A DNA stretch of 45,485 bases. Source: Hyphococcus sp. Lineage in GTDB: Bacteria > Pseudomonadota > Alphaproteobacteria > Caulobacterales > Parvularculaceae. A program made the translations under genes and the position numbers. The notes below the pieces were generated by a model. That model had not been told where the DNA came from and searched no databases. It worked only from the letters and a program-made list of their open reading frames with translations. Of the stretch, positions 8,537 to 34,805 are shown piece after piece. Where the stretch lies: assembly GCA_028285645.1 (NCBI GenBank), contig JANQOV010000027.1, positions 1-45,485 on the forward strand. The letters are read 5' to 3'. Position 1 is the stretch's first letter. Each line of letters starts with the position of its first letter.

Positions 8537-8578
8537 CCTCGGCTCGCCGCGCGGCCTTTTCCCGTCCGGCGAACCCCC

Positions 8579-17900: not shown

Positions 17901-19210
17901 GACGCTGCAGCGACGCTTTGCGAACTCGAAGACACTGCCGCCTCAATCGCTTCTTCCAAAATGCCAATCCCTTCTTGCAATATGGCGTCCGGCGTTGTTA
18001 GAGGCGGCAGTATTCTCACAACGTTGAAGCGCGTGCCGCAAACGAGAAGAATAAGACCGCGTTTTTCCGCTTCCGCCACAACAGCCGCCGCCAGCGCCGC
18101 ATCGGGGTCTTTTGTATCGCGGTCTTTCACAAGTTCAAAGGCGATCATGGCGCCGGGGCCGCGAATATCGCCGATGGCTTCCATGCCCTGCCGCGACGCG
18201 ACGTCTTTCAGGCGCGTGGTGATTGTCTCGCCGATATGGGCAGCGCGTTCGCACAAGTTTTCTTCGTCGATAATATCTAGAACAGCGCCCGCCGCAGCAA
18301 CGGCGATGGGATTGCCTGCATAGGTGCCGCCAAGACCGCCGGGATGTGCTGCATCCATCAACTCGGCGCGGCCGACGACAGCAGAAAGCGGAAACCCACC
18401 GGCGAGGCCCTTCGCCATGGTGACGATGTCAGCTTTGACGCCGGCATGTTCGATGCCGAACATTTTGCCGGTGCGCGCCATCCCGGCCTGCACTTCATCG
18501 ACGATCAGCAGAATATTGTGTTTGTCGGCGATGGCGCGCAGTTCCCGCAAAAAGTCATGGGGAGCGGGAACAAAACCGCCTTCCCCCTGAACAGGCTCGA
18601 TGACAAAGGCGGCGACGCGTTCAGGGTCTACATCGGCGGCCAAGAGATGCTGCAATCCAGCGAGTGCATCGGCGGAGGTAACGCCCGCATATTCGTATGG
18701 GAAGGGCGCGTGGTAGATGTCAGCAGGGAAGGGACCAAAACCCTTTTTGTACGGAACAACCTTTCCCGTGAGCCCCATCGCCATCATGGTTCTGCCGTGA
18801 AAGGCGCCGGCAAAGGAAATTACCGCTGACCGGCCAGTTGCGATCCGTGCGATCTTGATGGCGTTCTCCACGGCCTCGGCGCCGGTCGTTACAAGCATGG
18901 TTTTGGCCGGGCCTTCGACCGGCGCAATTTTGTTCAGCCGTTCCGCAAGGGCGACGTAGCTTTCATAGGGCGCCACGTGAAAACAGGTGTGGGTGAAATT
19001 GTTCGCCTGCTCCGCTACAGCAGCCATCACTTTTGGGTGGCGATGGCCGGTATTGTTGACGGCGATGCCGGCGGCGAAGTCGATATAGCGCTTGCCTTCG
19101 ACGTCCCAAAGTTCAGCGTTTTCGGCCCGCGCCGCATAAATCCCTTTGGTTCCAACGCCTTGCGTGACCGCCGCCTTATGGCGCGCCTGTAATTCCGCGT
19201 TTTGGCCCAT
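17897..19210 (-). CDS. gabT: 4-aminobutyrate aminotransferase (GabT/PuuE-like)
   Basis: A 437-residue class III PLP aminotransferase that converts a 4-aminobutyrate-type omega-amino acid plus 2-oxoglutarate to succinate semialdehyde and glutamate. The PLP aspartate lies in LLIVDEVQAG (D238) and the Schiff-base lysine in MAKGLAGGFP (K267). AAGIAVNNTGHRHPKV, LVTTGAEAVENAIKIAR and PGGLGGTYAGNPIA match enteric GabT closely. Chosen start is ATG 19210, with GGGAGG 5 bases upstream; ATG 19213 is adjacent, and the TTG at 19237 has no ribosome site. It is coupled to the CoA-transferase gene downstream and divergent from a PuuR-like regulator with paired operator-like palindromes between them. Confidence 0.88.
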   Translation of the reverse strand: MGQNAELQARHKAAVTQGVGTKGIYAARAENAELWDVEGKRYIDFAAGIAVNNTGHRHPKVMAAVAEQANNFTHTCFHVAPYESYVALAERLNKIAPVEGPAKTMLVTTGAEAVENAIKIARIATGRSAVISFAGAFHGRTMMAMGLTGKVVPYKKGFGPFPADIYHAPFPYEYAGVTSADALAGLQHLLAADVDPERVAAFVIEPVQGEGGFVPAPHDFLRELRAIADKHNILLIVDEVQAGMARTGKMFGIEHAGVKADIVTMAKGLAGGFPLSAVVGRAELMDAAHPGGLGGTYAGNPIAVAAAGAVLDIIDEENLCERAAHIGETITTRLKDVASRQGMEAIGDIRGPGAMIAFELVKDRDTKDPDAALAAAVVAEAEKRGLILLVCGTRFNVVRILPPLTTPDAILQEGIGILEEAIEAAVSSSSQSVAAAS

Positions 19211-19240
19211 CATCGCCTCCCGACTGATTTCGCCCAAGGT

Positions 19241-19256: not shown

Positions 19257-19275
19257 GTATGGTCGATATATCATC

Positions 19276-19291
19276 GCTCAAAATATTGAGC
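19276..19291. promoter_or_regulatory. Putative PuuR-like operator, copy 2
   Basis: GCTCAAAATATTGAGC is a near-perfect inverted repeat (one mismatched pair next to the centre), 35 bases from copy 1 and 57 bases before the regulator start. The pair sits in the gabT/regulator divergent promoter region, suggesting cooperative binding and autoregulation. Confidence 0.55.
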
Positions 19292-19348
19292 AAGCGCATT
19301 AAATTATGTTACAAAATGCCGCCAACGAATTTGAGGAAAGACAGAGGC

Positions 19349-20884: not shown

Positions 20885-20902
20885 ATACCCTCAAAGGGGT
20901 AT
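20885..20902. promoter_or_regulatory. ATACCC-N6-GGGTAT palindrome 1 (MFS/ALDH promoter)
   Basis: ATACCCTCAAAGGGGTAT is a perfect 6+6 inverted repeat 68 bases upstream of the MFS start and 48 bases after the LuxR gene stop. It is the best-preserved copy of a motif found again at 26341, 26426 and 33786. Size and symmetry fit a LuxR-type dimer site. Confidence 0.6.
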
Positions 20903-20970
20903 TGAGCGCCTTAGAGTATGAGCGGATCGTCGCCAATGCGCAGCATTTTACTTAATCTACAGGATCGCGA

Positions 20971-22215
20971 ATGAATCAGTCGGCGACGAGACTGAACGGC
21001 GGATTGTTGCCGGAAAATTGGGGCCTTCTATACGCCGCCTTCGCCTTCTCACAGGCGATCGGTCTTATCACTTATTGGACGCTGCCGATTTTGGCGGGCG
21101 CGCTGATCACAGGGCTTGAACTATCAGGAACACAAGTCGGTCTGATCGGCACCATTGAGTTCGCCGGCTTGTTGGTCTCGTCGATGCTGTTGGCGCCGTT
21201 TATCGATCGCGGGTTTCGCCGGACAATAGCGTTGATCAGTGTTGCTATCGTGATCAGCGTAAATCTGATCTGTGCTGCATTTCCACTAGAGTACCAGGCG
21301 CTGGCAGCGCTGCGTTTCGTTTGCGGTCTTGGCTCGGGGCTAGCGCTGGCGGTTGGCAATGCAACCATTGCCAATGCAAGGGATGCGGAAAAGTTCTCCG
21401 GTCATCTCACCATCGCGCTGGTTGCGTTCATGGTTGTGATCATGCCGGTCTTCACGCGGCTCAGCGAAGCCTATGGTCACCAGGGCGTGTTTTTTGGATT
21501 GGCGGTTGCTGTCGCTATCGGCGCCGTCTCAATTTTGTTCCTGCCGAACGGGCCCAATACCGAACTGGCGGCGGATGCTGCACAAACTGACAACCGCGCA
21601 GAAACAACTGACAAGCTACTGACGACAACGGCTTTGCTAGTGCTGGCAGTCGCCGTCTTGTTTGGCGTTCGTGATACGTTGCCTTGGTTAGTAGCGGAAC
21701 AACTCGGCGCCAACGCCGGCATGTCGCTGCCTGAGATGGGCAATCTCTTTTCGCTGATGTATGCAGTTAGCATTCTTGGTCCTGCGTCTTTGCTGTTTTT
21801 ATCTCGCATGTTTGGACCAAAAACCTTGCTTGCGGCGTCTATGACGGCGACCGGGCTGTTTGCCTGGATGTTCACGGTTTCAGACGGCAATGCGATGCAG
21901 TTCAGTCTCGGCATCATTATCTGGGCGACGATCTATTTCATCGCCTTTGCGCAGCTGAACGCCGTCGCTGCGATGGTTGATCGCAAAGGCCGGCTTGTTT
22001 CAGCGGTCGGGAGCAGCTTCATCGCCGGCGTCATGGCTGGTCCGGTGATTGGCGGTTACCTTTTGGATCGAGGAGGGTTCGGTTCTATCGGCGCCGCCGA
22101 ACTTGTTTTGACCGCATTGATGGCGGTCATCATTTTGGGATTGCGAATAGGCAAAAGCGCAACGGCAGGCCCTGCACAGGATAATTTAATGGAGCAACGA
22201 AATGAAGAAAGTTGA
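20971..22215 (+). CDS. MFS transporter
   Basis: A 414-residue inner-membrane protein with about 12 hydrophobic segments and the usual central hydrophilic loop (about 195-215, NTELAADAAQTDNRAETTD). The first-half loop between helices 2 and 3 has a weakened MFS signature (APFIDRGFRR). Closest style is the drug/H+ or organic-solute symporter class; direction and substrate cannot be told. AGGATCG stands 5-7 bases before the ATG. The gene overlaps the aldehyde dehydrogenase start by 14 bases, so transport and aldehyde oxidation are coupled. It is preceded by palindrome 1. Confidence 0.85.
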   Translation: MNQSATRLNGGLLPENWGLLYAAFAFSQAIGLITYWTLPILAGALITGLELSGTQVGLIGTIEFAGLLVSSMLLAPFIDRGFRRTIALISVAIVISVNLICAAFPLEYQALAALRFVCGLGSGLALAVGNATIANARDAEKFSGHLTIALVAFMVVIMPVFTRLSEAYGHQGVFFGLAVAVAIGAVSILFLPNGPNTELAADAAQTDNRAETTDKLLTTTALLVLAVAVLFGVRDTLPWLVAEQLGANAGMSLPEMGNLFSLMYAVSILGPASLLFLSRMFGPKTLLAASMTATGLFAWMFTVSDGNAMQFSLGIIIWATIYFIAFAQLNAVAAMVDRKGRLVSAVGSSFIAGVMAGPVIGGYLLDRGGFGSIGAAELVLTALMAVIILGLRIGKSATAGPAQDNLMEQRNEES

Positions 22216-23680
22216 TGGGAAACTGCTGAAAGGCATGCTGATCAACGGCGAATGGCTTTCTGGAAGCGCGGGGACATTTGAAACGAAGTCGCCGTTTTCC
22301 GGAGAAGTACTTTACACGGTCGAGCGTTGCTCGCCTTCTGATGCGGATGAAGCGGTCGCTGCAGCAAAGGCTGCATTCCCAGCATGGCGGGAAACGTCGG
22401 TGGTCGATCGCGCCAATATCATGCGCAATGTGCATCGGCTTTTTGTGGAGCACGCTGAAGAAATCGCACAGATGGTGACCGCCGAGGTCGGTAAACCGAT
22501 TGTCGCCGCCCGCGAAGAGACGTTCGAATATGCGGCGCCGTCCTGGAGAAAAGCGGCGGAAGAAATTTTGCGCTACCGGGGCATGTTACTGCCATCGACA
22601 CAAGATCGCACGAATAACAAACGCCTTGTTCTTGGCCATCGCCCGTTGGGCGTTGTCGGCGTTATCACCCCTTATAACTTCCCAACAGATATTTCTTCCA
22701 TTGCGGTGGCGCACGCGGCGGTGGCCGGGAACACAATTGTATGGAAGCCAACGGAATATGCGCCGGTTTCCTGCGCCATGGTGGCTGACTTGTTCGAGGA
22801 AGCGGGCGTGCCCCCCGGGGTCATCAACATGGTGCAGGGCTTGGGCGACGCGGGCGCAGCTATCGTTGAAAACAAAGACGTCAAAGGGATTTTCTTCACC
22901 GGCTCGACAACGACTGGCGAGAAGATCGCGCGTGTTGATCCGTTGCGGCCCATGTTGCTTGAGCTTGGCGGCGACGGACCGCTGATTGTGCTTGAAGACG
23001 CTGATGTCGACGAGGCTGTCGAAGCGGCGGTTACTGGATGCTACTATTATTCAGGCCAGGTGTGCACGTCAGCAGAGCGGCTGCTCGTTCACGAAGCTGT
23101 TTATGATGAGTTCATTGAAAAGTTTCGTCAGAAAACGAGCGATCTGAAATTTGGCGACCCCGCCGATCAGGATGTCGATATGGGCCCCCTTTGCAACGAG
23201 ATGACTCTCAACCGGGCGCGCGCCCATGTTGCGGATGCGCGCGAGAAGGGCGCATCCATTGAGCAGTTCGGCCCCGAAGAGGGGCTGTTCTACCCCGCCA
23301 CGATCGTCACCAATGTTACTGACGACATGCAAATCCTGCAGGAAGAATCCTTCACGCCATTGGCGGTCGTCATCAAAATCAAATCCGCTGAGGAAGCGAT
23401 CGAAATCGCCAATAAATCGGAGCTGGGATTGGTCGCATCCCTTTGGACGAACAACCTAAGCGACGCGTGGCGCGTTGCGGAAGCGCTTCCCCATGGCACC
23501 GTCAATGTAAACGAAACCAATAACTACTGGGATCAATTGGCGCCGTTTGGCGGCGCAGGCCGCAGCGGCGTCGGGCGTGAACTGTCGCAGTGGTTCCTCG
23601 ACTCGTTTACTGAGCAAAAGCTCATCAACTTTGATCTTGGCGGGCCGAAAAGCGATCGGCGCATTGAAGGCGGCTGGTAG
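22202..23680 (+). CDS. Aldehyde dehydrogenase (succinate-semialdehyde DH-like)
   Basis: A 492-residue NAD(P)-dependent aldehyde dehydrogenase. The catalytic cysteine is C288 in YYSGQVCTSAERLL, the general base is E254 in LLELGGDGP, and the oxyanion asparagine is in PYNFP (N159). The FFTGSTTTGEKI Rossmann motif is typical. It resembles the GabD/lactaldehyde/sulfolactaldehyde group. With GabT and an amine oxidase in the same region, the probable job is oxidation of succinate semialdehyde or an aminoaldehyde from the amine-oxidase step. GGAGCAACGAA precedes the ATG, which lies inside the end of the MFS gene. Confidence 0.88.
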   Translation: MKKVDGKLLKGMLINGEWLSGSAGTFETKSPFSGEVLYTVERCSPSDADEAVAAAKAAFPAWRETSVVDRANIMRNVHRLFVEHAEEIAQMVTAEVGKPIVAAREETFEYAAPSWRKAAEEILRYRGMLLPSTQDRTNNKRLVLGHRPLGVVGVITPYNFPTDISSIAVAHAAVAGNTIVWKPTEYAPVSCAMVADLFEEAGVPPGVINMVQGLGDAGAAIVENKDVKGIFFTGSTTTGEKIARVDPLRPMLLELGGDGPLIVLEDADVDEAVEAAVTGCYYYSGQVCTSAERLLVHEAVYDEFIEKFRQKTSDLKFGDPADQDVDMGPLCNEMTLNRARAHVADAREKGASIEQFGPEEGLFYPATIVTNVTDDMQILQEESFTPLAVVIKIKSAEEAIEIANKSELGLVASLWTNNLSDAWRVAEALPHGTVNVNETNNYWDQLAPFGGAGRSGVGRELSQWFLDSFTEQKLINFDLGGPKSDRRIEGGW

Positions 23681-23690
23681 GCGTCGCTGG

Positions 23691-24179
23691 TTAGTATGCG
23701 CAGGGCGCTTCAAATTCCGACAGGACCCGCCAGGTCGCGTCAGACTTGGCGACGACATATCGCCAGCCCGGCAATTTGCATGTCGTCACAGCATCGCCGT
23801 CCGCTGTTTCCATCGACCAGCGCGCTGTCAACAAGACAGTGTTGGCGTCGATCTCGACGCCTTCAACGGATTTCAATTTGCTTTGTTCCCAGCCGCTCTG
23901 GATCCACGGTGCAATGTACTCGCTGATTTCCGTTTCGAGACTCTGTTTTGAGTGATAACCAACATTGCCGCCAAACCCCAAATAGATATGATCTAGATAA
24001 TGGTCGTAAAAGTTCGGATCGCCCTCAACAAAACTGACGGCGTAAACGCTTTCATACCAATCAATAGCGCTTTCAGTGGCCGATTTCTCGTCCGAAGACG
24101 CGGTTGCCGAAGCAAAGGTCAGCGCCGATGCGACCGCGACTGCCGCGCCGAAGCGCCGTGCAATAAGTGTTTTTCGCAT
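23691..24179 (-). CDS. Exported NTF2/SnoaL-like protein
   Basis: A protein of about 162 residues with an N-terminal Sec signal (RKTLIARRFGAAVAVASALTFASATASS, cleaved near residue 28) and a small alpha+beta domain containing IDWYESVYAVSFVEGDPNFYDHYLDHIYLGF and a C-terminal WSMETADGDAV ... WRYVVAKSDATWRVLSEFE. This layout is typical of NTF2-like folds. ATG 24179 is used; a GTG at 24182 is directly adjacent. It is the last gene of the amine oxidase-cytochrome c operon on the minus strand (gap 11 bases), so it is likely a periplasmic accessory of that enzyme. No catalytic residues are recognised. Confidence 0.6.
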   Translation of the reverse strand: MRKTLIARRFGAAVAVASALTFASATASSDEKSATESAIDWYESVYAVSFVEGDPNFYDHYLDHIYLGFGGNVGYHSKQSLETEISEYIAPWIQSGWEQSKLKSVEGVEIDANTVLLTARWSMETADGDAVTTCKLPGWRYVVAKSDATWRVLSEFEAPCAY

Positions 24180-24190
24180 CACTTGTCTTT

Positions 24191-24700
24191 CTATTTCAGC
24201 GCTTTTAACAAGCAGATCAGCGACTTCCGCGCTTCAGCATCGCGCACGCCGCCATAAGCCATGCGATTACCCGGTAAAAATTGCGGGGGATTTTCAAGAA
24301 ATTTGTTGAGCGTGTCTTCGTCCCAAACCAGCCCCGACTCCCGCAGTACCGGGGAGTAAGCAAAGTTGTCCCCCGCCGCTGCGCTCGCTCCATAGATCCC
24401 GAACAGGTTCGGCCCCGTCAGATTCGGCTTGCCGGCATCAAAACTGTGACACACGCGGCACTGAGTTAAAGTCGTTTTCGCCAAGGCCTGATCGCAACTT
24501 GCGTCCATCTCATCAAACGCCTCGGTAAGTCCTCTTGCCGGCGCACCAACTTCTGCATCCGCAGTATTGTTTTCGGATGCGGGCGCCGGCGTTGGCGCAG
24601 GCGCGGCGGTCTCATTGTTTTGTTCCCCGCCACACGCCGCTGCGAGGAAAATTGCGCCAACAGAAATAACGCAGATCAGCTTAAGGTTCGACATTAGCAA
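24191..24700 (-). CDS. Lipoprotein cytochrome c, partner of amine oxidase
   Basis: A 169-residue class I cytochrome c anchored as a lipoprotein. The signal peptide ends in a lipobox (FLAAACGG, lipidated C23), followed by a Pro/Ala-rich linker. The haem motif is CRVCH (81-85), and the distal methionine is M147 in LPGNRMAYGG. The TTG at 24700 has GGGAG 5 bases upstream; ATG 24694 is the alternative start. It follows the exported flavin amine oxidase by 14 bases. This pairing resembles flavin amine dehydrogenases such as NicA2, which pass electrons to a dedicated cytochrome c, so this is the probable electron acceptor linking amine oxidation to the respiratory chain. Confidence 0.85.
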   Translation of the reverse strand: MLMSNLKLICVISVGAIFLAAACGGEQNNETAAPAPTPAPASENNTADAEVGAPARGLTEAFDEMDASCDQALAKTTLTQCRVCHSFDAGKPNLTGPNLFGIYGASAAAGDNFAYSPVLRESGLVWDEDTLNKFLENPPQFLPGNRMAYGGVRDAEARKSLICLLKALK

Positions 24701-24714
24701 GCGTACTCCCGCGG

Positions 24715-26214
24715 CTAACTGACCAGTGCGCGCGCAACGACCTGGCCTGTGCTGACGCCCATCTCAATGCCGCCATCCATCCAACCGCGCCACATGGTGG
24801 CGATATCTGCGGAAGCGAAATGCACGTCGCCCTCCGCGCGCTGCAACTCAGGAACAAGTTTGAACTGATGCGGACGAAGCGTAGACCATGTTCCCTTTGA
24901 GAAGGGATCATAGAGCCACTGATATCCGTAAGTAGATTCAACCTCCACGTCCGGCAGGAATTGTCGCAGCATGTTCTGCACGACATCGAGATTGTTCACA
25001 TCAAAGGCGCCGTCGAGCCCGTAAGACAATAGCGTCGTTCCTCCCGGCCCGGTGGTTTCCGTATAGCCGTATTGCATAGGGCCAAATCCGTCATCGGCTG
25101 TCAAAAAGACATTGCCGATGTCTTGTTTCGTCTTTGCGTGCAGCTTGTTGCCTGCGCCCACATGGCGTTCGCGGGAGGTTGTCAACTTCACTTCCGACAA
25201 GGCCGGCTCGAATTCAACGTCGACCCAGGTGTTAAGCGGTGACGTGACAATCACCTTTTTAGCGGTAACCGTTTGCCCGTCCTCAAGGGTAATTTGAACG
25301 CCAGTTCCGTTTTGCGCAATGCGGCTCACTGGCGAACTTAATCGCACTTCTGCATCGCTATCGTCGAGCATCGCGTTGATCAAAGAAATCGTGCCGTTCG
25401 ACAAACGATAGCGAGAAACCGCGTTATTGAAATCGATGGAGTTGCTGCCGAGGTTCGCCCACCAGCGCAGCATTTCAAGGAACCCGCCTTCCTTACAAGG
25501 GGCGTGGGACATGATTGACCAGATTGCATTCAAATTGAGCCGAACATCGTCCTCAAGGTCGAGCTGATCGATCCGGTCCTGGATGGTGAGGTCTTGGTAT
25601 TTCTTCCATTCGTCTGTGTGGAATGTGTCATAGGGTCGAGGAAAAACTTCCCGCGACATCGCGCAATAGTCGGTCATCGCCTTATCGACCTTTGGCCAGA
25701 AGGTTGCGATATCCGCTTCGACAGCTTTGCCGTCTTTAAGATAAATCCATCGATCCGGGTTGACCGCAGCAGGCGTGTCATCGATCGGGAGATTGTAGCG
25801 CGTGACTTCAGCCCAGATATGCGGCTGCAGCCAATAAAGATAATTGGCGCCGAGTTCGATATTGTGATCGCCAAATGGCGCGTAATAGGTCCTACCGCCT
25901 AAGCGATTCCGCGCTTCTAATAAGAGCGTTGTAAGGCCGGCTTTGCTAGTTTCCCGGGCGGCGCTGGCGCCCGCCATGCCGCCGCCGATAACAACAACGT
26001 CAAAATCGGAACCGCCGCCCGTTGCAGGGACTGCTGGGGCAGGTTCATTATCGGCATTTTCTGCAGAAGCATCCCCCTGATCGCCGCCGGAGCAGGCTGC
26101 AACGAGTCCTGCGGTTGAAAGCGCAGCGGCGGTGATGAACCCGCGCCGCGAGACGTCTTTCTCGTCGACATCTTCTTCGTGAGTTATTTCCGGCTCGCTC
26201 TTTTTCGTTGTCAT
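24715..26214 (-). CDS. Tat-exported flavin amine oxidase/dehydrogenase
   Basis: A 499-residue FAD enzyme of the monoamine-oxidase family. It begins with a Tat signal (VSRRGFITAAALSTAGLVAAC) whose lipobox-like end makes C41 a possible lipid anchor. The FAD motif GGGMAG (77-82), the LLEARNRLGGRTY motif (about 98-110) and the C-terminal ADIATMWRGWMDGGIEMG FAD segment are present. The substrate would be a primary, secondary or tertiary amine. ATG 26214 is chosen, with GGGAGG about 11 bases upstream; the frame is open to 26388 but the Tat signal fixes the start. It heads a minus-strand operon with the lipoprotein cytochrome c and NTF2-like genes, which suggests a dehydrogenase and not an H2O2-forming oxidase. 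Confidence 0.87.
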   Translation of the reverse strand: MTTKKSEPEITHEEDVDEKDVSRRGFITAAALSTAGLVAACSGGDQGDASAENADNEPAPAVPATGGGSDFDVVVIGGGMAGASAARETSKAGLTTLLLEARNRLGGRTYYAPFGDHNIELGANYLYWLQPHIWAEVTRYNLPIDDTPAAVNPDRWIYLKDGKAVEADIATFWPKVDKAMTDYCAMSREVFPRPYDTFHTDEWKKYQDLTIQDRIDQLDLEDDVRLNLNAIWSIMSHAPCKEGGFLEMLRWWANLGSNSIDFNNAVSRYRLSNGTISLINAMLDDSDAEVRLSSPVSRIAQNGTGVQITLEDGQTVTAKKVIVTSPLNTWVDVEFEPALSEVKLTTSRERHVGAGNKLHAKTKQDIGNVFLTADDGFGPMQYGYTETTGPGGTTLLSYGLDGAFDVNNLDVVQNMLRQFLPDVEVESTYGYQWLYDPFSKGTWSTLRPHQFKLVPELQRAEGDVHFASADIATMWRGWMDGGIEMGVSTGQVVARALVS

Positions 26215-26340
26215 AACCTTCAATTCCTCCCGGTTGTAAGAATGAATGCGTTCTCGCTGCGAAAACGCAAACCTTAGTGATGCGGCGTCAATGCGATGCG
26301 CGATTTGAAAAAACTCTTGGTTGCTCCACGGCGCCGCACA

Positions 26341-26358
26341 ATACCCCCTAAAGGGTAG
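26341..26358. promoter_or_regulatory. ATACCC-N6-GGGTAT palindrome 2 (amine oxidase promoter)
   Basis: ATACCCCCTAAAGGGTAG is an inverted repeat with one end mismatch, 126 bases upstream of the amine-oxidase start and exactly 85 bases from palindrome 3. The divergent intergenic region spans 26215-26538 and holds no other feature I can name. Confidence 0.55.
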
Positions 26359-26425
26359 GCTGTGATTCGCACCAAGCGTAGCAGCCAATGCAGTGACGCT
26401 TTGGCGCCATGCTGGTTCCGCGCCG

Positions 26426-26443
26426 ATACCCCTAAAATGGTAT
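26426..26443. promoter_or_regulatory. ATACCC-N6-GGGTAT palindrome 3 (TonB receptor promoter)
   Basis: ATACCCCTAAAATGGTAT is an inverted repeat with one inner mismatch, 95 bases upstream of the TonB-receptor ATG. The core CCCCTAAA is shared with palindrome 2. Each divergent gene thus has its own copy. Confidence 0.55.
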
Positions 26444-26538
26444 TGTTCGTAGCCCCAAACCCGAAAAAGCTGTTGAAATGGCTCATTTTGTCAACCGCTC
26501 CATGGCGGCGGCCGTTGACGCAAAGGGAGGGAAAATCA

Positions 26539-28821
26539 ATGGCGAAGGCGAAACTTATGATGCGGGCTGCGGTCGCGCCCATCGTGATCGGCCTCAGTTC
26601 TACAACGGCGATGGCGCAGGTCGATCAGATTTTTGTGACGGCGCAAAAACGCGAGCAATCCGCCCAGGATGTTGGCATCGCAATCTCGGCGTTTTCCGGT
26701 GATCAGGTCGACAAACTTGGTTGGGGGGATACGGAGGCGATCGCCGTACAGACGCCAGGATTGATTGCAACGTCGTTCTCCGGGGGGAGTTCGACCGGCC
26801 TGTTTTCGATCCGCGGCATTTCGCAAAACGACTTTGCCGATCACCAGGAAGCGCCGAGCGCCGTTTATGTCGATGGCGTGTACTTGGCGACCACCAGTCA
26901 AACAACTTCTGAATTGTTTGACGTCGAACGCATTGAGGTGTTGAAAGGGCCGCAAGGCACGCTCTTTGGACGTAACGCAACCGGCGGTCTGGTACACATC
27001 ATCAACAAAGCGCCGACGGATGAATTTGAGGGTTTCGCGAAAGTTACGGTGGCCGAATTCAATCAAATTCGCGCCGAGGGCGCCGTATCGGGGCCGATAT
27101 CAGACTCAATCCGGGGGCGGCTGTCGTTCCTGACGGATAATGCTGACGGTTACTTTGAGAACAGGAATGTCGGCGTACAGCCTGCGCGCGATAATGCGTT
27201 TGGCGGGTTTCCGCCTGCGTCAGAAGACGGGTCGGAAGACTTCCGCGGCCGCGACCACCAAAATGTTCGCGCGCAAATTGACATGGACGTCTCCGAGAAT
27301 GCTGTTCTTGGTTTCACGTTGAATTACGGCGTCGTTGACAATATCGGCAACGCTTATGACACCGTGCCGACGCCGGCCGGCGTTATTGACCTGACAACCA
27401 CTGATTTCTACGGCACGCCGGTGATCGCTGACGTTAACGCGGAAGCGCCGAATATTCGTGGCTTTGTGGACAAGGAATCAATCTCCTACACAGGCGACTT
27501 CAACTATAGCGGCGACGGCTGGAACCTTGTTGCGATCCTAAACTACACCCAGTCTGAAAAGACCTATCAGGAAGATGATGATGGCGGACCTTTCAATGTT
27601 GCAACGTTTGGCACGGATCAGGACGCAGACACGCTGACCGGCGAACTTCGCCTTAATGGTGAAACCGGCGCGCTCAACTGGACTGCAGGGTACTACTATC
27701 TCAATATCGATGGCGACTTCTTCGGCACCTTCCAGTTTCCTGCTGTAACCGGCGCCGGCGGTCCCGGCGTCTTTGACGGATTTGGTTACGGCATCGATCT
27801 CGACTACGCGCTTGAAACCAGCGCGCACGCCCTTTTTGGCCAGATCGAATATGACTTGAGTGACCAGCTCAAGCTCATCCTTGGCGGTCGCTGGACATCG
27901 GACAACAAAGATTACAGCATTCTCGCAAGCTGTGTTGACGACCCGGATCCGGCCGTCGCGCCCAATACGACTTGTGCTGATTTCATCCTTGGCGGCGGCT
28001 TCATTATCGATGAAGGGCTGACGGCGCTTGAGAAGAACGACGACTTCTTCACCTGGAAGGCGCAGCTTGAATATACGCCGGTTGATAACGTTCTTCTCTA
28101 TGCGGGCTATAACAGGGGCGTAAAAGCCGGAAGCTTTACGGCGCCGCTTGATGGATTCCTTACGGTTGCCGAACTCGATTTCGAGCCGGAAAAACTCGAC
28201 GCTTACGAAGTCGGCCTCAAAGCCGATCTCGCAGATAATCGCCTGCGCATTAACGCCAGCGGTTTCTATTACGACTACACCGATTACCAAGGCTTTATCT
28301 TTGTTGGCCTTGCGAGTGTCGTGCGCAACTTCGAAGCGGAGATCTATGGCGGCGAACTAGAGATTATCGCCGCGCCAGGCGATGGTTGGGAATTCCGCGG
28401 CGGTCTTTCATTGCTTGACGCAACGGTCTTCGACGTTGAAGTGGGTCCTGCAACCTTTGCGGATCAGAACATGGTGCTGGCGCCGGATGTAACGGCAAAC
28501 TGGTTGATCAGGAAGGAATTTCCGGTTCGCGGCGACGATTGGCTCGCCTTCCAGTTCGATGGCTACTACACTAGCGAGCAATCCTACAACACGATCAACG
28601 GACCGCTCGTGACGGGTGATGGGTACGCATTGATGAATGCAAGCATCAGCTATGGGTTTCAGCTAGGCGACACAGAAGCTGAAGCGCAGTTGTTTGTGAG
28701 AAACCTCGCAAACGAAGAAAACCAGACCTATTCGTTTGATCTGTCGGCGTTCTTTGGAAACACCATTCAGGTCTTCGGTCCGCCGCGCATCTTTGGCGGA
28801 TCGGTCTCGGTTAAATTCTAG
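26539..28821 (+). CDS. TonB-dependent outer-membrane receptor
   Basis: A 760-residue outer-membrane receptor. It has a Sec signal (about 1-26, ending STTAMAQ), a TonB box-like DQIFVTAQKREQ, and a plug domain (GLFSIRGISQNDF ... DVERIEVLKGPQGTLFGRNATGG) followed by a 22-strand type barrel ending in an aromatic-rich GGSVSVKF. ATG 26539 is chosen for GGGAGG 8 bases upstream; the open frame extends to 26362 without a ribosome site. The style is that of receptors for organic nutrients, not clearly siderophores. It is divergent from the amine-oxidase operon with a shared palindrome pair, so it probably imports the amine substrate. A strong terminator follows. Confidence 0.92.
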   Translation: MAKAKLMMRAAVAPIVIGLSSTTAMAQVDQIFVTAQKREQSAQDVGIAISAFSGDQVDKLGWGDTEAIAVQTPGLIATSFSGGSSTGLFSIRGISQNDFADHQEAPSAVYVDGVYLATTSQTTSELFDVERIEVLKGPQGTLFGRNATGGLVHIINKAPTDEFEGFAKVTVAEFNQIRAEGAVSGPISDSIRGRLSFLTDNADGYFENRNVGVQPARDNAFGGFPPASEDGSEDFRGRDHQNVRAQIDMDVSENAVLGFTLNYGVVDNIGNAYDTVPTPAGVIDLTTTDFYGTPVIADVNAEAPNIRGFVDKESISYTGDFNYSGDGWNLVAILNYTQSEKTYQEDDDGGPFNVATFGTDQDADTLTGELRLNGETGALNWTAGYYYLNIDGDFFGTFQFPAVTGAGGPGVFDGFGYGIDLDYALETSAHALFGQIEYDLSDQLKLILGGRWTSDNKDYSILASCVDDPDPAVAPNTTCADFILGGGFIIDEGLTALEKNDDFFTWKAQLEYTPVDNVLLYAGYNRGVKAGSFTAPLDGFLTVAELDFEPEKLDAYEVGLKADLADNRLRINASGFYYDYTDYQGFIFVGLASVVRNFEAEIYGGELEIIAAPGDGWEFRGGLSLLDATVFDVEVGPATFADQNMVLAPDVTANWLIRKEFPVRGDDWLAFQFDGYYTSEQSYNTINGPLVTGDGYALMNASISYGFQLGDTEAEAQLFVRNLANEENQTYSFDLSAFFGNTIQVFGPPRIFGGSVSVKF

Positions 28822-28844
28822 CGCGCCGAAAAGCACGCAATCTG

Positions 28845-28888
28845 AAACGTCGCAGGAACTTCCTCCCTTCTGCGGCGTTTCTTTTTTT
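28845..28888 (+). terminator. Rho-independent terminator after TonB receptor
   Basis: AAACGTCGCAG (28845-28855) pairs with CTGCGGCGTTT (28870-28880), an 11-bp stem with one G-U pair and a 14-base loop, followed by CTTTTTTT. It ends the receptor transcript 24 bases after its stop codon. Confidence 0.85.
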
Positions 28889-28944
28889 GAAGGCAAATGA
28901 ACGCCTGATGCTGGCGGAGCAGGAGATGGGAAAGTGAACTAACG

Positions 28945-29517
28945 ATGACCAATGCGCTGCTTGTGAATTGCCATCCACGGCAGAATTCCCTCACGCACGC
29001 GGTTGCTCAAACCTTTTGCGAGCACGCGAAAGGTGTGACGTTTGAAATTGCTGATCTATACGCGGAAGGGTTTGATCCCTGCATGGGCGTTGAAGACGAG
29101 CCTGATTGGGAGGATCCGAGAAAGGCATATTCTGTCGCCGTTCAGAAGGAAATGCAGCGCGTTGAGCGCAATAGCGCGACCGTCATGGTGTTTCCCGTCT
29201 GGTGGTGGTCGATGCCGGCAATGTTGAAGGGCTGGATCGACCGCGTCTTCAATCACGGCTGGGCCTATGGCGATCGGACATACCCGCAGAAGACCGTTTG
29301 GATGATCGCAGTCGCTGGTAATGATCAGCCAAGCTATGTGAAACGCGGATACGATATTGCGCTTGAGACGCAACTCAAGGTCGGTATTTTGGACTATTGC
29401 GGCGTTGCTTCACCGCGGCTTGAAGTCCTTTACGGCGCCATTGAAGGTGAAGAATATGTCTCAAATATCCTCAAGCGTGCTGCTGTGCTTGGCGAGGAGT
29501 TTCAATCTGTTCTTTGA
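28945..29517 (+). CDS. NAD(P)H:quinone oxidoreductase, flavodoxin fold
   Basis: A 190-residue soluble flavoprotein of the NQO1/MdaB/Kef-ancillary family that reduces quinones by two electrons. The N-terminal NALLVNCHPRQNSLTHAVA and the FMN/FAD motif VMVFPVWWWSMPAMLKGWIDRVF are diagnostic. The 3' end overlaps the 3' end of the histidine-kinase gene on the other strand by 47 bases. The gene lies after the receptor terminator, so it has its own promoter, not recognised here. A role in recycling quinone products is possible but not shown. Confidence 0.85.
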   Translation: MTNALLVNCHPRQNSLTHAVAQTFCEHAKGVTFEIADLYAEGFDPCMGVEDEPDWEDPRKAYSVAVQKEMQRVERNSATVMVFPVWWWSMPAMLKGWIDRVFNHGWAYGDRTYPQKTVWMIAVAGNDQPSYVKRGYDIALETQLKVGILDYCGVASPRLEVLYGAIEGEEYVSNILKRAAVLGEEFQSVL

Positions 29518-31009
29518 TTGCGTCGCTGGCTGGATTGTAAGCCGTACGGCGTCTGCTCGTCACGCGCCAGATCTCCGATAGAAGATCGCGCTCATCCAAC
29601 GGTTTTGACACATATCCGTCCGCGCCATATTCGAGATAGCGCTCGCGGTCTCCACTCATGGCGTCAGCAGTGACTGCAACTAGGGGAACAGCCTTCCAAA
29701 CTGCATCCGCGTCTCGAATGTTTTTAATCGTCTCGGGGCCGTCCATCACAGGCATTTGCATATCAAGCAACACGACATCGAAGGGGCGCTCTTCAAGCAT
29801 AGCGAGCGCCTCTACCCCATTTTCAGCTTCCGCAATTTCCGCACCCAGAGGCGTGACAAAAAGCGAGGCGATATGGCGGTTAATCGCAATGTCATCGGCA
29901 ATAAGAATGCGGAGGTTTGAAGCCGCAAGCTCTCGGCGCACCACCTCGCTGTCTTTGAGCTGGCGCTCCAATTGTGAGTCGCCTGACGCAGCTTCGCACG
30001 CCCGAAATGAAAACGAAAAGGTCGATCCATTTCCCGGCGTTGAAATCGCGCTTGCAGTACCGCCCATCAGTTCGGCGAGACGCCGTGTGATCGACAATCC
30101 GAGGCCGGTGCCGCCATATTGGCGCGCAATTGTTTCGTCAGCCTGAACAAATGGTTGGAAGAGTTTGCTAAGGGCTTCTTTGTCCAGGCCCGGCCCTGTA
30201 TCTTTGACGCTAATTTCAATGAGGTGCGCCGCATCATCCGTCGCCCTCTGTCGCACGCGAACTTCAACACCGCCCGTCTTGGTGAACTTAATTGCATTCG
30301 ATATCAGGTTGGAGGTGCATTGTTGAACTCGGACCTTGTCGAAGCTCAGCCAGCTAGGGACGTCGTCATCAATCGATAACGTCAAGTTGAGGAACTTTTC
30401 CGATGCCCGCGCGGACCAAAGCTGAACTTCCCGGCGCATCATGTCTTCAAGATCAACATCCGACGGAACGATATCAAACTTGCCCGCTTCAATCTTGGCG
30501 ATATCAAGCACGTCATTTAACAGTGTGGTCAGGGTGCCGCCTGAATCACGTATAGTATCCACAAATTCCCGTTGGCGGTCGTCAAGGTCCGTTGACTGAA
30601 GAATCTGCGCCATACCGAGAACACCGTTAAGGGGTGTTCGTATCTCATGGCTCATATTGGCGAGGAACGCTGATTTCGCCTTGCTCGCCGCTTCCGCCTG
30701 AGCTACGGCGACTTCAAGCTCGTGTTGTGATTTATCGAGCAAGTCAAAAGCCATTCTGACGATGATGATCATTGGCGTGGCCACAATAAAAGAAGTGAGC
30801 GCGCCAACCACCGCCATGCCGGGCAGGCTCATATCGAACATCGGCCCGTCTATTAGCGCGTGCAAAACGATGACGATGACTACGGCGAGAATACTGCTCA
30901 AACCGGTCGCGGCTGAGGCGTATGCAATAAAACTGGCTTTGGAGTCTGTCGCAACGGTAAGCGTTGCAAGACGCAAAAAAATCGACCGGACTAACGAAGA
31001 AAGATTCAT
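29471..31009 (-). CDS. Hybrid sensor histidine kinase
   Basis: A 512-residue membrane kinase. Two transmembrane helices lie at about 27-52 and 62-92 with almost no periplasmic loop between them, so sensing is likely within the membrane or cytosol. The dimerisation domain has FLANMSHEIRTPLNG (phospho-accepting H121). The ATPase domain has SNAIKFT (N box), DTGPGL (G1) and GGTGLGLSI (G2). A C-terminal receiver carries D416 in DVVLLDMQMPVMDG. No output regulator or separate response regulator is adjacent. It converges with the quinone reductase gene (47-base overlap). A degenerate relative of the ATACCC palindrome lies about 85 bases upstream. Confidence 0.9.
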   Translation of the reverse strand: MNLSSLVRSIFLRLATLTVATDSKASFIAYASAATGLSSILAVVIVIVLHALIDGPMFDMSLPGMAVVGALTSFIVATPMIIIVRMAFDLLDKSQHELEVAVAQAEAASKAKSAFLANMSHEIRTPLNGVLGMAQILQSTDLDDRQREFVDTIRDSGGTLTTLLNDVLDIAKIEAGKFDIVPSDVDLEDMMRREVQLWSARASEKFLNLTLSIDDDVPSWLSFDKVRVQQCTSNLISNAIKFTKTGGVEVRVRQRATDDAAHLIEISVKDTGPGLDKEALSKLFQPFVQADETIARQYGGTGLGLSITRRLAELMGGTASAISTPGNGSTFSFSFRACEAASGDSQLERQLKDSEVVRRELAASNLRILIADDIAINRHIASLFVTPLGAEIAEAENGVEALAMLEERPFDVVLLDMQMPVMDGPETIKNIRDADAVWKAVPLVAVTADAMSGDRERYLEYGADGYVSKPLDERDLLSEIWRVTSRRRTAYNPASDAIKEQIETPRQAQQHA

Positions 31010-31092
31010 AGTCTTGATGCGAACAAACCCCCAACCAAGATAATCAATATTGATTAATCGATACTCAACCCCACGGATAAAGAAAAAATTTA

Positions 31093-31111
31093 CTATCCGC
31101 CCAATGGGTAA
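31093..31111. promoter_or_regulatory. Degenerate ATACCC-type palindrome upstream of histidine kinase
   Basis: CTATCC (31093-31098), 7 bases, then GGGTAA (31106-31111). It is a weak relative of the palindromes at 20885, 26341, 26426 and 33786, with a spacer of 7 where they have 6. It lies 84 bases upstream of the kinase start. Its status as a binding site is doubtful. Confidence 0.25.
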
Positions 31112-31228
31112 AACTTTCGCATGATTCGCTATATCGTCCGAAAGCAGACAAAATGCGGGAAAAACCCCGTAAGCCGGTAGTTTGAATGCGTTTTGAGCGC
31201 GCTACCGCGCCACGCGAGGAATTTGCGG

Positions 31229-33679
31229 TTACGCTTTAACCCGTTCGCTTTTAGGGTCATACATCGGCTTGAGAGACGCTTTTGCAGCGTATTTATCGGC
31301 GCCGATGCGAATTTCAATTTGCCGACCGGCAATCCAGTCCGCCGTGACGCCGTCTTTGTTCGTCAAGTATCCCATCGCAACAGCGCCGCCCAGCGTGTGG
31401 CCGTACATGGCTGATGTCGTAATGCCGTTGATCTCGCCGTCCACCAGGATCGGTTCGTCATGATAGAGCAGCGGCTCGGGATCCTCTAACAGGAACTGCA
31501 CGAGGCGTTTGGTCAAAGGTTTTTGTTGCTTTTGTTCAAGCAGGGCGGCCTTGCCCAAAAACCCGCCTGGTTTTTCGAAATCAGAGGCAAACCCCAATCC
31601 TGCTTCAAGGGGCGTGTCATCGGCGCCAATGTCGTGCGCCCATTCTCTATACGCCTTTTCGATACGCAGTGAATTCAGCGTGTGATAACCGCAATGGCGC
31701 AGATTGAGGTTTTTTCCCTTTTCGACAAGCGCGTCATAGACTGGGAAGAGGAACTCTGTGGGGACATAGAGTTCCCATCCAAGTTCTCCCATATAGGTTA
31801 TGCGCAAGGCTTTGACCGTTTGATAGCCGATGTTGATGTCGCGCATGGTCCCGAAAGGAAACGCTTCGTTTGAAAGATCGGCGTCTGAGAGCGCATTTAT
31901 CAGCGCGCGCGAATTGGGCCCCTGAATATTGAGCATGCCATAGGCGCCGGTGATGTCTGCAATTGTGCAATTGGCGTTGGCCGGAATGTTGTCCTTGATC
32001 CAATGGAATACATGCATGTGCGTGAAGGGGGCGGTGACCACCAAGAACGCGTCTTCAGCCATGCGTGTTACGGTCAAGTCCGCTTCAATACCGCCGCGGA
32101 CGTTGAGGAATTGCGTATAAACGGCTTTGCCAATAGGAACACCCACATTGTTTGTGCAGATCCAGTTCAGCGAACCTTCAGCATCGCGGCCTTGCACAAG
32201 GAACTTCGAAAACGAACTTTGTTCGAATATGCCGACATTTTCGCGAACGGCCCGGTGTTCTTCTGCGTTATAATCAAACCAGTTCTGTCGCTTGAAACTA
32301 TATTCGTATTTCGGTTCGACGCCTTTCGGCGCATACCAGTTCGGTCGCTCCCAGCCCGCCGATTCCCCAAAACAGGCGCCCGCCGCTGCGACGCGATCAT
32401 GCAGGACAAGCTTTTTGACGTTCCTTGCGCTTTCATACTGCCTGAACGGCCAGTGATATTGATAGCCAAGGCCGAGGGATTCCGTGACGCGATCTTTCAG
32501 GAATTTCGGGTTGCGCTGAAAGGCGTGGGTGCGCCTTAAATCAGCGTCGAACACATCCATGGGAGGGTGGCCGTTCATGATCCAGTTGGCCATGATCATG
32601 CCGGCGCCGCCGCTCGACAGGATGCCAAGGGAATTAAATCCAGCAGCGACGAAGTAGTTTTTGATGTTCGGCGCTTCGCCCATGAGATAGTTGTGGTCCG
32701 GCGTGAAGCTTTCCGGGCCGCAGAACAGAAGCTTGATGCCAGCGTTCTCCATCGCGGGAATACGCTTCATGGCTTTTTCGATATAAGGCAGCATCCGGTC
32801 CCAATCGGGCGGAAGCTCATCAAACGAAAAGTCAGACGGAATGCCTTCTTCTCCCCATGCCGCAGCGATCGGCTCAAAAAGCCCAAGCATGAGTTTGCCA
32901 GTCTCTTCGCGGTAATAGGCGGCGTTACCCGGGTCCCGCAAAATGGGAAGCTCCGGACGCATGCCGTCCATGTTCTCCGTGATTAGATAATAATGCTCGG
33001 CAGCATGAAGCGGGACGACGACGCCGGACTTTTCTGCAAATTCACGGGCCCACATGCCGGTGCAATTCACGACAATGTCGGCGGTAATCCGCCCTTGGTC
33101 GGTATCGACGCCGGCAACTTTTCCATCTTCTACGATGACGTCTGTTACGCCGATATCTTCAAAGATTTGGACGTCGCCCGAGCGCGCGCCTTTGGCTAAC
33201 GCCATAGTCGTATCGGTGGGATTTGTCCTTGCGTCGTCGGGAAAATAAAAGCCTGCGATCGTGTCGGATGTGTCAGCGAGAGGCCAATGTTCGTTTATCT
33301 CTTCCGGCGCTATTTCCCGGTTTGTAACGCCAAAACAATCTGCCATAGCGCAGCCGCGGCGCATCTCTTCCAGCCGCACTTCGTCTGATGCGATCTGAAT
33401 GGAGCCGGTATTCAAGACGCCCGTGGCCTGGCCGGTTTCTTCTTCAAGGGTCTTGAACAAATCAAGCGTATACTTGGCGAGTTTCGTTGCGTTTTCCGAA
33501 TGGCGAAGCGTGGTTAATAAGCCTGCTGCGTGCCATGTGGTGCCGCAGGTGAGTTTCTTTCGCTCCAGCAGGACAACATCGGAAACGCCGTATTTCGCCA
33601 GATGATAGGCAATGCTGCAGCCAATGATGCCGCCGCCCACGATAACAACACGAGCTGATCCTGGAAGCGACTTGCTCAT
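31229..33679 (-). CDS. Dimethylglycine dehydrogenase-like FAD/THF demethylase
   Basis: An 816-residue fusion of an N-terminal DAO-type FAD domain (GGGIIG, 15-20) and a C-terminal GcvT-like tetrahydrofolate domain (about 440-810, including GMLNIQGPNSRALI and TYMGELGWELYVP). H50 in CGTTWHAAGL is the position at which dimethylglycine/sarcosine dehydrogenases and N-methyl-aminobutyrate oxidase link FAD covalently. The enzyme would remove an N-methyl group from a secondary or tertiary amino acid and hand it to THF as methylene-THF. It lacks a signal peptide, so it is cytosolic. AAGGGG stands 5 bases before the ATG. It is divergent from purU, with two palindromes between them. Confidence 0.87.
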   Translation of the reverse strand: MSKSLPGSARVVIVGGGIIGCSIAYHLAKYGVSDVVLLERKKLTCGTTWHAAGLLTTLRHSENATKLAKYTLDLFKTLEEETGQATGVLNTGSIQIASDEVRLEEMRRGCAMADCFGVTNREIAPEEINEHWPLADTSDTIAGFYFPDDARTNPTDTTMALAKGARSGDVQIFEDIGVTDVIVEDGKVAGVDTDQGRITADIVVNCTGMWAREFAEKSGVVVPLHAAEHYYLITENMDGMRPELPILRDPGNAAYYREETGKLMLGLFEPIAAAWGEEGIPSDFSFDELPPDWDRMLPYIEKAMKRIPAMENAGIKLLFCGPESFTPDHNYLMGEAPNIKNYFVAAGFNSLGILSSGGAGMIMANWIMNGHPPMDVFDADLRRTHAFQRNPKFLKDRVTESLGLGYQYHWPFRQYESARNVKKLVLHDRVAAAGACFGESAGWERPNWYAPKGVEPKYEYSFKRQNWFDYNAEEHRAVRENVGIFEQSSFSKFLVQGRDAEGSLNWICTNNVGVPIGKAVYTQFLNVRGGIEADLTVTRMAEDAFLVVTAPFTHMHVFHWIKDNIPANANCTIADITGAYGMLNIQGPNSRALINALSDADLSNEAFPFGTMRDINIGYQTVKALRITYMGELGWELYVPTEFLFPVYDALVEKGKNLNLRHCGYHTLNSLRIEKAYREWAHDIGADDTPLEAGLGFASDFEKPGGFLGKAALLEQKQQKPLTKRLVQFLLEDPEPLLYHDEPILVDGEINGITTSAMYGHTLGGAVAMGYLTNKDGVTADWIAGRQIEIRIGADKYAAKASLKPMYDPKSERVKA

Positions 33680-33785
33680 CTTACCCCTTGAACGTCAAAG
33701 CGCATTTTCGCAGTCGGCAGGGAACATTCGCCAGGCAAATGCTGCAGACGATTAAAACGTTCGGTCAATTCATGAAGAACCAGCA

Positions 33786-33803
33786 ATACCCTGTTGGGGG
33801 TAG
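33786..33803. promoter_or_regulatory. ATACCC-N6-GGGTAT palindrome 4 (DMGDH/purU promoter)
   Basis: ATACCCTGTTGGGGGTAG is an inverted repeat with one end mismatch in the 268-base gap between the divergent DMGDH-like (start 33679) and purU (start 33948) genes. It is 106 bases from the former and 144 from the latter. Confidence 0.55.
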
Positions 33804-33814
33804 GGCAGGAGGTC

Positions 33815-33832
33815 CTATCCTATTGGTGGTAG
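33815..33832. promoter_or_regulatory. Weaker palindrome 5 in DMGDH/purU promoter
   Basis: CTATCCTATTGGTGGTAG keeps the inverted CTA...TAG ends and a TTGG core shared with palindrome 4, 29 bases away. Two inner pairs mismatch, so it may be a lower-affinity second site. Confidence 0.4.
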
Positions 33833-33947
33833 TGTCAATCGAATTGATTCGATGTCGGATCGCTTATCAGTATTCCAGACCCTTGCCGATTCCGATGGCT
33901 GGCAAAGGCGAAGGGTATTTTTGGGCAAGAAGGGGTAGGACCCGCGG

Positions 33948-34805
33948 ATGACGCGCTCTTGGATATTGACCTATTTTTGTACTGACGTTGCTGGCATTCA
34001 ATCGGCTGTCTCAACATTCATTTATGAAGCCGGCGGGTTTATCGAAGAATCAAAAGCGCACAGCGATCCCGCAGCGAACCGTTTCTTTTCGCGCATCGTT
34101 TTTCGGTCTGGATCAGACGGTGCGTTTGATTTTGAGGGGTTCGAGAAAGGTTTTGGAGAGCTGGCGGATAAGTTCGAAATGGAATGGTCGGTTGTAGATG
34201 CTGATCGGCGCGCGTCGGCGGTCATCGCCGTTTCCAAGTTTGGCCATTGCCTCAACGATCTGCTCCACCGTTGGAAAAACGGCGCGTTGCCCATCGATAT
34301 CAGGGCGATCATCTCGAACCATGAGGCCATGCGAGAGATGTCTGAGTGGTACGGCATTCCTTATCATTACATCCCGATTTCAAAGCAGACCAAACTCGAA
34401 AGCGAGACGGAGTTTTACCGCATAACAAAAGAGTACGATGCAGAGCTCGTGGTGCTCGCGCGCTATATGCAGATTTTGTCAGACGGGCTTGCTGCAAAGC
34501 TTTCGGGCCGCTGCATTAATATCCATCATTCTTTTTTGCCGAGTTTCAAAGGCGCAAAGCCCTATCATCAGGCCCATGAGCGCGGCGTCAAATTGATCGG
34601 CGCCACGGCGCATTATGTCACGACCGATTTGGATGAAGGTCCGATCATCGAACAGGATGTTGAACGTGTTGATCATTCGCTTGCACCCAACCAGCTTGTT
34701 GAGGTGGGCAGGGACATTGAAGCGCGGGTCTTGTCGCGCGCTGTAAAATGGCATGCGTCCAATCGGGTCATTTTAAACGGTGATAAGACAATCGTTTTTA
34801 AATGA
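33948..34805 (+). CDS. purU: Formyltetrahydrofolate deformylase PurU
   Basis: A 285-residue enzyme that hydrolyses 10-formyl-THF to formate and THF. It has an N-terminal ACT-like domain (1-80) and a C-terminal formyltransferase fold. The catalytic triad is N191 in CINIHHSFLP, H222 in GATAHYV and D229 in DLDEGPII. Length is standard. Placed head-to-head with a THF-dependent demethylase, it would release one-carbon units coming from N-demethylation and free THF, a role established for purU in methylamine-type and N-methyl-aminobutyrate catabolic operons. No folD is visible between methylene-THF and formyl-THF in this window, so a housekeeping copy must serve. Confidence 0.92.
   Translation: MTRSWILTYFCTDVAGIQSAVSTFIYEAGGFIEESKAHSDPAANRFFSRIVFRSGSDGAFDFEGFEKGFGELADKFEMEWSVVDADRRASAVIAVSKFGHCLNDLLHRWKNGALPIDIRAIISNHEAMREMSEWYGIPYHYIPISKQTKLESETEFYRITKEYDAELVVLARYMQILSDGLAAKLSGRCINIHHSFLPSFKGAKPYHQAHERGVKLIGATAHYVTTDLDEGPIIEQDVERVDHSLAPNQLVEVGRDIEARVLSRAVKWHASNRVILNGDKTIVFK

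Follow-up and report, generated by a model that had tools for sequence, protein, structure and literature searches.

A 45,485-nucleotide contig of Hyphococcus sp. (assembly GCA_028285645.1, contig JANQOV010000027.1, positions 1 to 45,485; hereafter the window) raises the question of what a recurring inverted repeat, ATACCC-N6-GGGTAT, does in front of several of its transport and catabolic genes. The initial annotation had assigned the repeats to a LuxR-type regulator encoded at 19946, which would control an MFS transporter with an aldehyde dehydrogenase (ALDH), an amine oxidase, a TonB-dependent receptor and a DMGDH-like enzyme as one catabolic regulon, perhaps together with a histidine kinase. 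From their sequence context, the repeats are very probably the sites through which one LuxR-type regulator switches genes on. We consider it likely that this regulator acts as a class-II activator, with genes for the uptake and catabolism of an N-methylated amine as its regulon.

The four repeats singled out at the start, at 20885, 26341, 26426 and 33786, are present with 0, 1, 1 and 1 mismatches to the palindrome, respectively, and are real, not random. All four are intergenic, as had been stated, and this holds after the start codons were re-read from the sequence: ATG 26214 is the more likely start of the open reading frame (ORF) of the amine oxidase, which had been listed from 26388, and ATG 26539 that of the TonB receptor ORF, which had been listed from 26362. 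Two weaker repeats had also been named. The one at 33815 has the right spacing, with two mismatches in the 10-base core, whereas the one at 31093 fits only with a 7-base spacer and was rejected on spacing.

In the whole 3.55-Mb genome, the exact core TACCC-N6-GGGTA occurs three times, each time within the window, and four of the five sites that match the full palindrome with at most one mismatch are also found there. All 5-base dyads with spacers of 0-20 were counted in four loci, and among the 2756 this one shares the first rank. One further core with one mismatch, at 8572, lies outside the cluster and has no TTG arm (see below). The genome is estimated to be 87% complete, so that an exact site elsewhere may have gone undetected.

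The density of less exact copies is that of the background, as it would be if the repeats were chance, terminator or structural repeats and not operators. At up to three mismatches the window holds 12 matches, against a shuffled mean of 7.8, which is unremarkable; the eight listed matches besides the four main sites have three mismatches each. Genome-wide, matches with at most two mismatches (39) show no excess over a reversed-pattern control (48), cores with one mismatch are found in 20 places compared to 77 for the control, and the directional form described below, with one mismatch, has 24 matches against 37. Since the one-mismatch core lies below its control count, only exact sites are informative, and because loose thresholds (1-3 mismatches) gave counts at or below background, we used exact or near-exact sites. 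Their exclusive location in the genome, together with their direction, promoter spacing and conservation across genera, makes an origin by chance or as terminator or structural repeats extremely improbable.

When the sites are aligned by the gene that they face, a longer common form emerges, TACC-N8-GGTATTG, whose TTG arm points towards the gene. This direction, like the overlap with the promoter, had been missed in the initial annotation. The form was built from the sites of the window and of three relatives, and four exact matches exist in the genome, all four within the window, so that the density check proposed at the outset speaks against random occurrence for the core and the directional form alike. 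Because the form was derived partly from the sites that are counted, its presence in the window is partly so by construction, which is not the case for its absence elsewhere in the genome. A total of 12 exact matches was found in 27 congeners. Six clusters together hold 22 exact matches. In 21 cases the match faces an ORF of at least 200 codons whose start lies no more than 450 bp away; for 12 of the 22 there is such a start behind the match as well, several of these being divergent gene pairs.

The TTG abuts the dyad at the place expected for a -35 box. If it is taken as the start of a -35 hexamer, a spacing of exactly 17 bp leads to an element of the form xAxxxT in 12 of the 15 non-redundant promoters and to its T in 14. 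Each of the other spacings examined gave 0-3, and the result at 17 bp was not reached in any of 20,000 shuffles. The 15 promoters are 20 oriented sites minus five near-duplicate Sphingobium sites (two from TomTYG72, three from TomTYG42), four of which also have xAxxxT at 17 bp. In the window, the element is found in three of the four promoters. The 17-bp spacing puts the dyad centre near -43.5. The class-II position is the place from which LuxR-family activators contact RNA polymerase, with the dyad near -43 in lux and tra boxes. The predicted operators abut the putative -35 region; class-II operators overlap or abut this region.

An operator at the -35 region would equally suit a repressor, and sequence alone gives no sign of control; the same LuxR-type protein could thus block the -35 region until released by its ligand. 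We regard this as unlikely, as the dyad is fixed just upstream of the TTG at class-II distance and the -10-like hexamers resemble TATAAT poorly (with approximate textbook weights, they score -0.24 on average at the best spacing), which suits activator-dependent promoters. LuxR-family proteins are, moreover, mostly activators. Activation is therefore more likely than repression.

Conservation was followed in other genera. A scan of genome contigs with the single LuxR protein found no relatives; a scan with a two-row alignment yielded two, in Novosphingobium nitrogenifigens (49% identity) and Parahaliea maris (40%), and a plasmid collection added Sphingobium isolates from tomato, with LuxR identities of up to 39%. 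Each of these orthologues has a DMGDH-like protein (about 50% identity) encoded on its own stretch or, in TomTYG42, on its own plasmid. On the TomTYG42 plasmid luxR is about 200 kb from the catabolic cluster; three exact sites lie in the cluster and none in the 23-kb luxR stretch. In the relatives, exact sites precede genes for DMGDH, TonB receptor, SDR-ALDH, ALDH, amine oxidase, MFS and decarboxylase-like proteins. All three exact matches of the TomTYG64 plasmid and all five of the TomTYG72 plasmid (at four sites) lie in the cluster, as do four of the 12 in the Parahaliea record, within one 10-kb stretch. The TomTYG72 amine oxidase (68% identity) is divergent from a TonB receptor gene as in the window; the intervening gap carries two one-way sites in the window and a single site with TTG on both sides in TomTYG72. 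Two candidates were dropped, L073:1466 for arms in the wrong direction and L019:19366 for want of a TTG arm, and the TomTYG74 and TomMM15 clusters were scanned and left uncounted as near-copies. The plasmids of TomTYG42 (L078) and TomMM15 (L079) carry the DMGDH cluster a few kb from annotated beta-glucosidase and beta-xylosidase genes. The words LuxR, TonB and amine oxidase are absent from the main text of PMC10653915.

The related genome G881 was found after the motif had been fixed and served as a held-out genome. It encodes counterparts of LuxR (56% identity), the amine oxidase (78%), ALDH (76%), the aminotransferase (75%), the TonB receptor (60%), MFS (57%), DMGDH (51%) and PurU (49%). Exact sites precede the amine oxidase, ALDH and TonB genes and a one-mismatch site the MFS gene; three of the four exact matches in this genome are in the cluster. 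The conservation in related genomes that the initial annotation had called for is thus seen in Sphingobium, Parahaliea and G881, and in Novosphingobium in one-mismatch form only. With orthologous regulators and the same motif in other genera, the proposed regulon is well supported for MFS-ALDH, the amine oxidase, the TonB receptor and the DMGDH-like enzyme, but not for the histidine kinase. Its candidate site is the mis-spaced repeat at 31093, and with that repeat the kinase was rejected as a target. No kinase homologue was found in the three G881 stretches, and the TomTYG64 locus shows two weak kinase matches (27% identity), which lie in ordinary two-component genes.

The exact directional site is absent from all 31 loci of distant LuxR relatives (20 and 11 loci) and from all six DMGDH loci without a LuxR homologue at E 1e-10, chosen from 515 records with a match. 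In a tree of 38 LuxR proteins, the seven DMGDH-linked ones, three of which are near-identical Sphingobium proteins, form one group with a support of 100/100. Four of the distant relatives (L048, L051, L052, L053) have a TACCC-N6-GGGTA-like dyad with one mismatch just upstream of their own luxR, without the TTG arm, and a wider group of LuxR proteins, with a different promoter layout, may have this core in common. Separately, a genome of the Parahaliea family has two adjacent core-like dyads, one of them exact, close to a distant LuxR relative (L148, 2204-2235).

The repeats could also be operators of another regulator of the cluster, such as a histidine-kinase pathway or the cupin-HTH (helix-turn-helix) protein encoded at 19259, whose gene adjoins luxR in the window and, at 62% identity, in Novosphingobium. 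Tblastn searches with 15 window proteins (E 1e-8 / 1e-10) found no cupin-HTH homologue in the motif-bearing stretches of TomTYG64, Parahaliea and G881. Only LuxR and DMGDH were found in all four clusters compared (L019, L073, L074 with a stretch of 13.9 kb, and L141-L142). An assignment to another regulator is accordingly quite improbable, more so than repression by the LuxR-type protein itself. As an observation of its own, the cupin-HTH gene (19259-19927) lies directly before luxR and may control the lower pathway; its Novosphingobium counterpart is near genes for a CoA-transferase and a glutaryl-CoA-dehydrogenase-like protein.

Several results weigh against activation of these genes by the LuxR-type protein through such sites. 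The 17-bp spacing behind the 12 of 15 promoters was first seen by eye and then tested, and one TomTYG72 dyad, counted in both directions, accounts for two of the 15. The DMGDH promoter of the window lacks the -10-like element at this distance, and in G881 the prediction failed, with xAxxxT in none of five promoters at 17 bp and in four of five at 18 bp, another usual sigma-70 spacing. In G881, the site before DMGDH is weak. No exact match exists in the genome of Novosphingobium, which has the orthologue and a DMGDH-like gene; there is a single one-mismatch site, before DMGDH. Eight of the 12 Parahaliea matches lie outside the cluster stretch, and the TomTYG72 site at 12032, the exception among the 22, faces no more than a short annotated ORF that precedes ALDH. 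Some loci of distant LuxR relatives hold core-like sites, and two of the six control DMGDH loci carry cores with one mismatch. Finally, no site precedes luxR itself within 250 bp upstream in the window, and autoregulation was rejected there.

The regulator has a GerE domain (PF00196, 6.8e-16, 58.1 bits against a cut-off of 23.5), which is also present in all 25 aligned members. Its N-terminal part matches no Pfam family, and no autoinducer-binding match was found in the 25 members at E 0.1. A predicted model (alignment of 20 rows) has a mean pLDDT of 85.8, and its best fold match in the PDB is the ligand-binding domain of VqsR from Pseudomonas aeruginosa, followed by SdiA, RhlR, CviR, TraR and LasR. 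Its similarity to VqsR and to the folds of quorum-sensing receptors suggests that the N-terminal domain of the model probably binds a small molecule. The VqsR domain (5xhx) is the best solved match by sequence as well as by fold (TM 0.81 on the target), but with only 23% identity over the ligand-binding domain. VqsR is a quorum-sensing regulator and is not known to be part of a catabolic cluster; it is said to read an inverted repeat of CC-N8-GG type, which our literature search did not confirm.

With LuxR, TraR, LasR, RhlR and SdiA the protein shares the GerE domain and a predicted dyad position near -43, known from lux and tra boxes, and its predicted model resembles all of these but LuxR. 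In contrast to quorum-sensing LuxR activators, its predicted targets are catabolic, its operator core is TACC-N8-GGTA, and it has no autoinducer-binding match in Pfam. The regulator is rare: among the 299 genomes of its order, matches at E 1e-10 occur in three, one of them its own. A search of the genome for LuxI (PF00765) gave no match, but controls were likewise without a match in this 87% complete assembly; none of the 20 window ORFs scanned belongs to this family. It is common for LuxR-type proteins to lack a partner signal synthase, and for most of these neither target nor ligand is known.

The genes of the cluster, listed in the table below, point to the kind of compound concerned. Among solved chains, those nearest to the amine oxidase carry the name 'Amine oxidase', and named 6-hydroxynicotine oxidases come next; we take the former to be of NicA2 and Pnao type. 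In the window, an amine oxidase family enzyme is followed by an ORF for a c-type cytochrome, and a stretch 57% identical to the latter follows the amine oxidase in Sphingobium TomTYG72. NicA2 and Pnao are likewise paired with a cytochrome, CycN, according to an excerpt of PMC9396064.

A folate domain, as would be expected in a demethylase, is part of the DMGDH-like enzyme, and purU adjoins its gene. The mabO-folD-purU module of pAO1 from Paenarthrobacter nicotinovorans, which is under a different regulator, offers a comparison. As an excerpt of PMC6214936 describes, MABO, FolD and PurU act in this order on N-methyl-4-aminobutyrate, a folate-linked demethylation of an N-methylated amino acid in which FolD and PurU clear the C1 unit. 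The window has the corresponding enzyme with FAD (DAO) and folate-binding (GCV_T) domains, MABO being likened by description, as well as purU; unlike in the pAO1 module, folD is not among the 20 window ORFs scanned, and it is present in the TomTYG64 and Parahaliea clusters. The possible weak site facing purU has no xAxxxT at 17 bp.

For the lower pathway, the aminotransferase passes the cut-off of TIGR00700 (gamma-aminobutyrate (GABA) transaminase), and the CoA-transferase comes closest to succinate-glutarate CoA-transferase, with 587 bits against a curated cut-off of 750. This leaning to glutarate makes a glutarate branch, and with it a C5 skeleton, possible. The closest DMGDH relative in the plasmid search (Aureimonas, 60%) occurs with an annotated GABA transaminase and succinate-semialdehyde dehydrogenase, and a Novosphingobium acyl-CoA dehydrogenase matches several solved glutaryl-CoA dehydrogenases. 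On these enzyme assignments, an N-methylated, possibly cyclic, amine is the favoured substrate.

Table. Predicted operators and genes of the cluster in the window
Feature	Position	Strand	Remarks
LuxR-type regulator, 296 aa	19946..20836	+	Ligand-binding-like N-terminal domain and GerE helix-turn-helix
Predicted operator, TTG arm toward MFS-ALDH	20886..20904	+	Exact TACC-N8-GGTATTG; 66 bp before MFS ATG
Predicted operator, TTG arm toward amine oxidase	26339..26357	-	Exact match; in the divergent amine oxidase/TonB gap
Predicted operator, TTG arm toward TonB receptor	26427..26445	+	Exact match; about 93 bp before ATG 26539
Predicted operator, TTG arm toward DMGDH-like gene	33784..33802	-	Exact match; 104 bp before ATG
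Possible weak operator toward purU	33816..33834	+	2 mismatches to the 10-base core and 2 to the directional 19-mer (by inspection)
MFS transporter, predicted target	20971..22215	+	Pfam MFS_1; LuxR-site-MFS order repeated in G881
Aldehyde dehydrogenase, predicted target	22202..23680	+	Pfam Aldedh; overlaps MFS end
Flavin amine oxidase/dehydrogenase, predicted target	24715..26214	-	Pfam Amino_oxidase; twin-arginine-like leader (by eye)
c-type cytochrome lipoprotein-like ORF	24191..24700	-	CRVCH motif; directly downstream of amine oxidase
Small ORF, third after amine oxidase	23691..24182	-	Export-signal-like start; no Pfam match at 1e-3
TonB-dependent receptor, predicted target	26539..28821	+	Pfam plug and barrel
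DMGDH-like FAD enzyme with folate-binding GCV_T, predicted target	31229..33679	-	Pfam DAO, FAO_M, GCV_T, GCV_T_C
PurU, formyl-tetrahydrofolate deformylase	33948..34805	+	TIGR00655 above cut-off; candidate target only
CoA-transferase III and GABA-type aminotransferase	16734..19237	-	Probably lower pathway; no near-exact operator in front

Away from these genes, three consecutive ORFs at 36456-42008 presumably resemble an ImuA-ImuB-DnaE2 mutagenesis cassette: the first has no Pfam match, an IMS (Y-family polymerase) domain is found in the second, and the third is 1080 aa long.

The motif, its clustering, direction and promoter overlap, its conservation and its co-occurrence with the regulator are computed from the genomes; from these we infer binding, activation, ligand and substrate as follows. 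The repeats would be the operators of the LuxR-type protein encoded at 19946, whose dimer would bind the approximately 16-bp dyad TACC-N8-GGTA abutting a TTG that serves as the -35 element, with a -10-like element 17-18 bp after the -35 and the dyad centre, near -43.5, at the class-II position. A ligand, probably the substrate or an intermediate, would bind the N-terminal domain and lead to activation of uptake, through the TonB receptor and MFS, and of breakdown, through the amine oxidase with its cytochrome c, the aldehyde dehydrogenase and the DMGDH-like demethylase acting on the N-methylated amine. The methyl group would leave as methylene-tetrahydrofolate, to be handled by FolD and PurU, and the remaining skeleton would enter a lower pathway of GABA or 5-aminovalerate type.

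We regard these genes as a new regulon under a regulator of a known kind, and its directional operator is unusually clear; the listings of our literature searches showed no comparable published regulator or operator. Its target set points to an uncharacterised route for an N-methylated amine, joining a nicotine-type amine dehydrogenase to folate-linked demethylation. More tentatively, and with considerable doubt, the proteins might represent an undescribed clade of VqsR-like LuxR regulators that sense an environmental, perhaps plant-derived, N-methylated cyclic amine and not a quorum signal. They would turn on a complete pathway from uptake to central metabolism, from TonB receptor to folate-linked demethylation, via a directional operator in which regulator site and -35 box are one element. 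Since the predictions for regulator, operator, site direction and compact target set are consistent between genera, both the DNA rule and the ligand lend themselves to direct tests.

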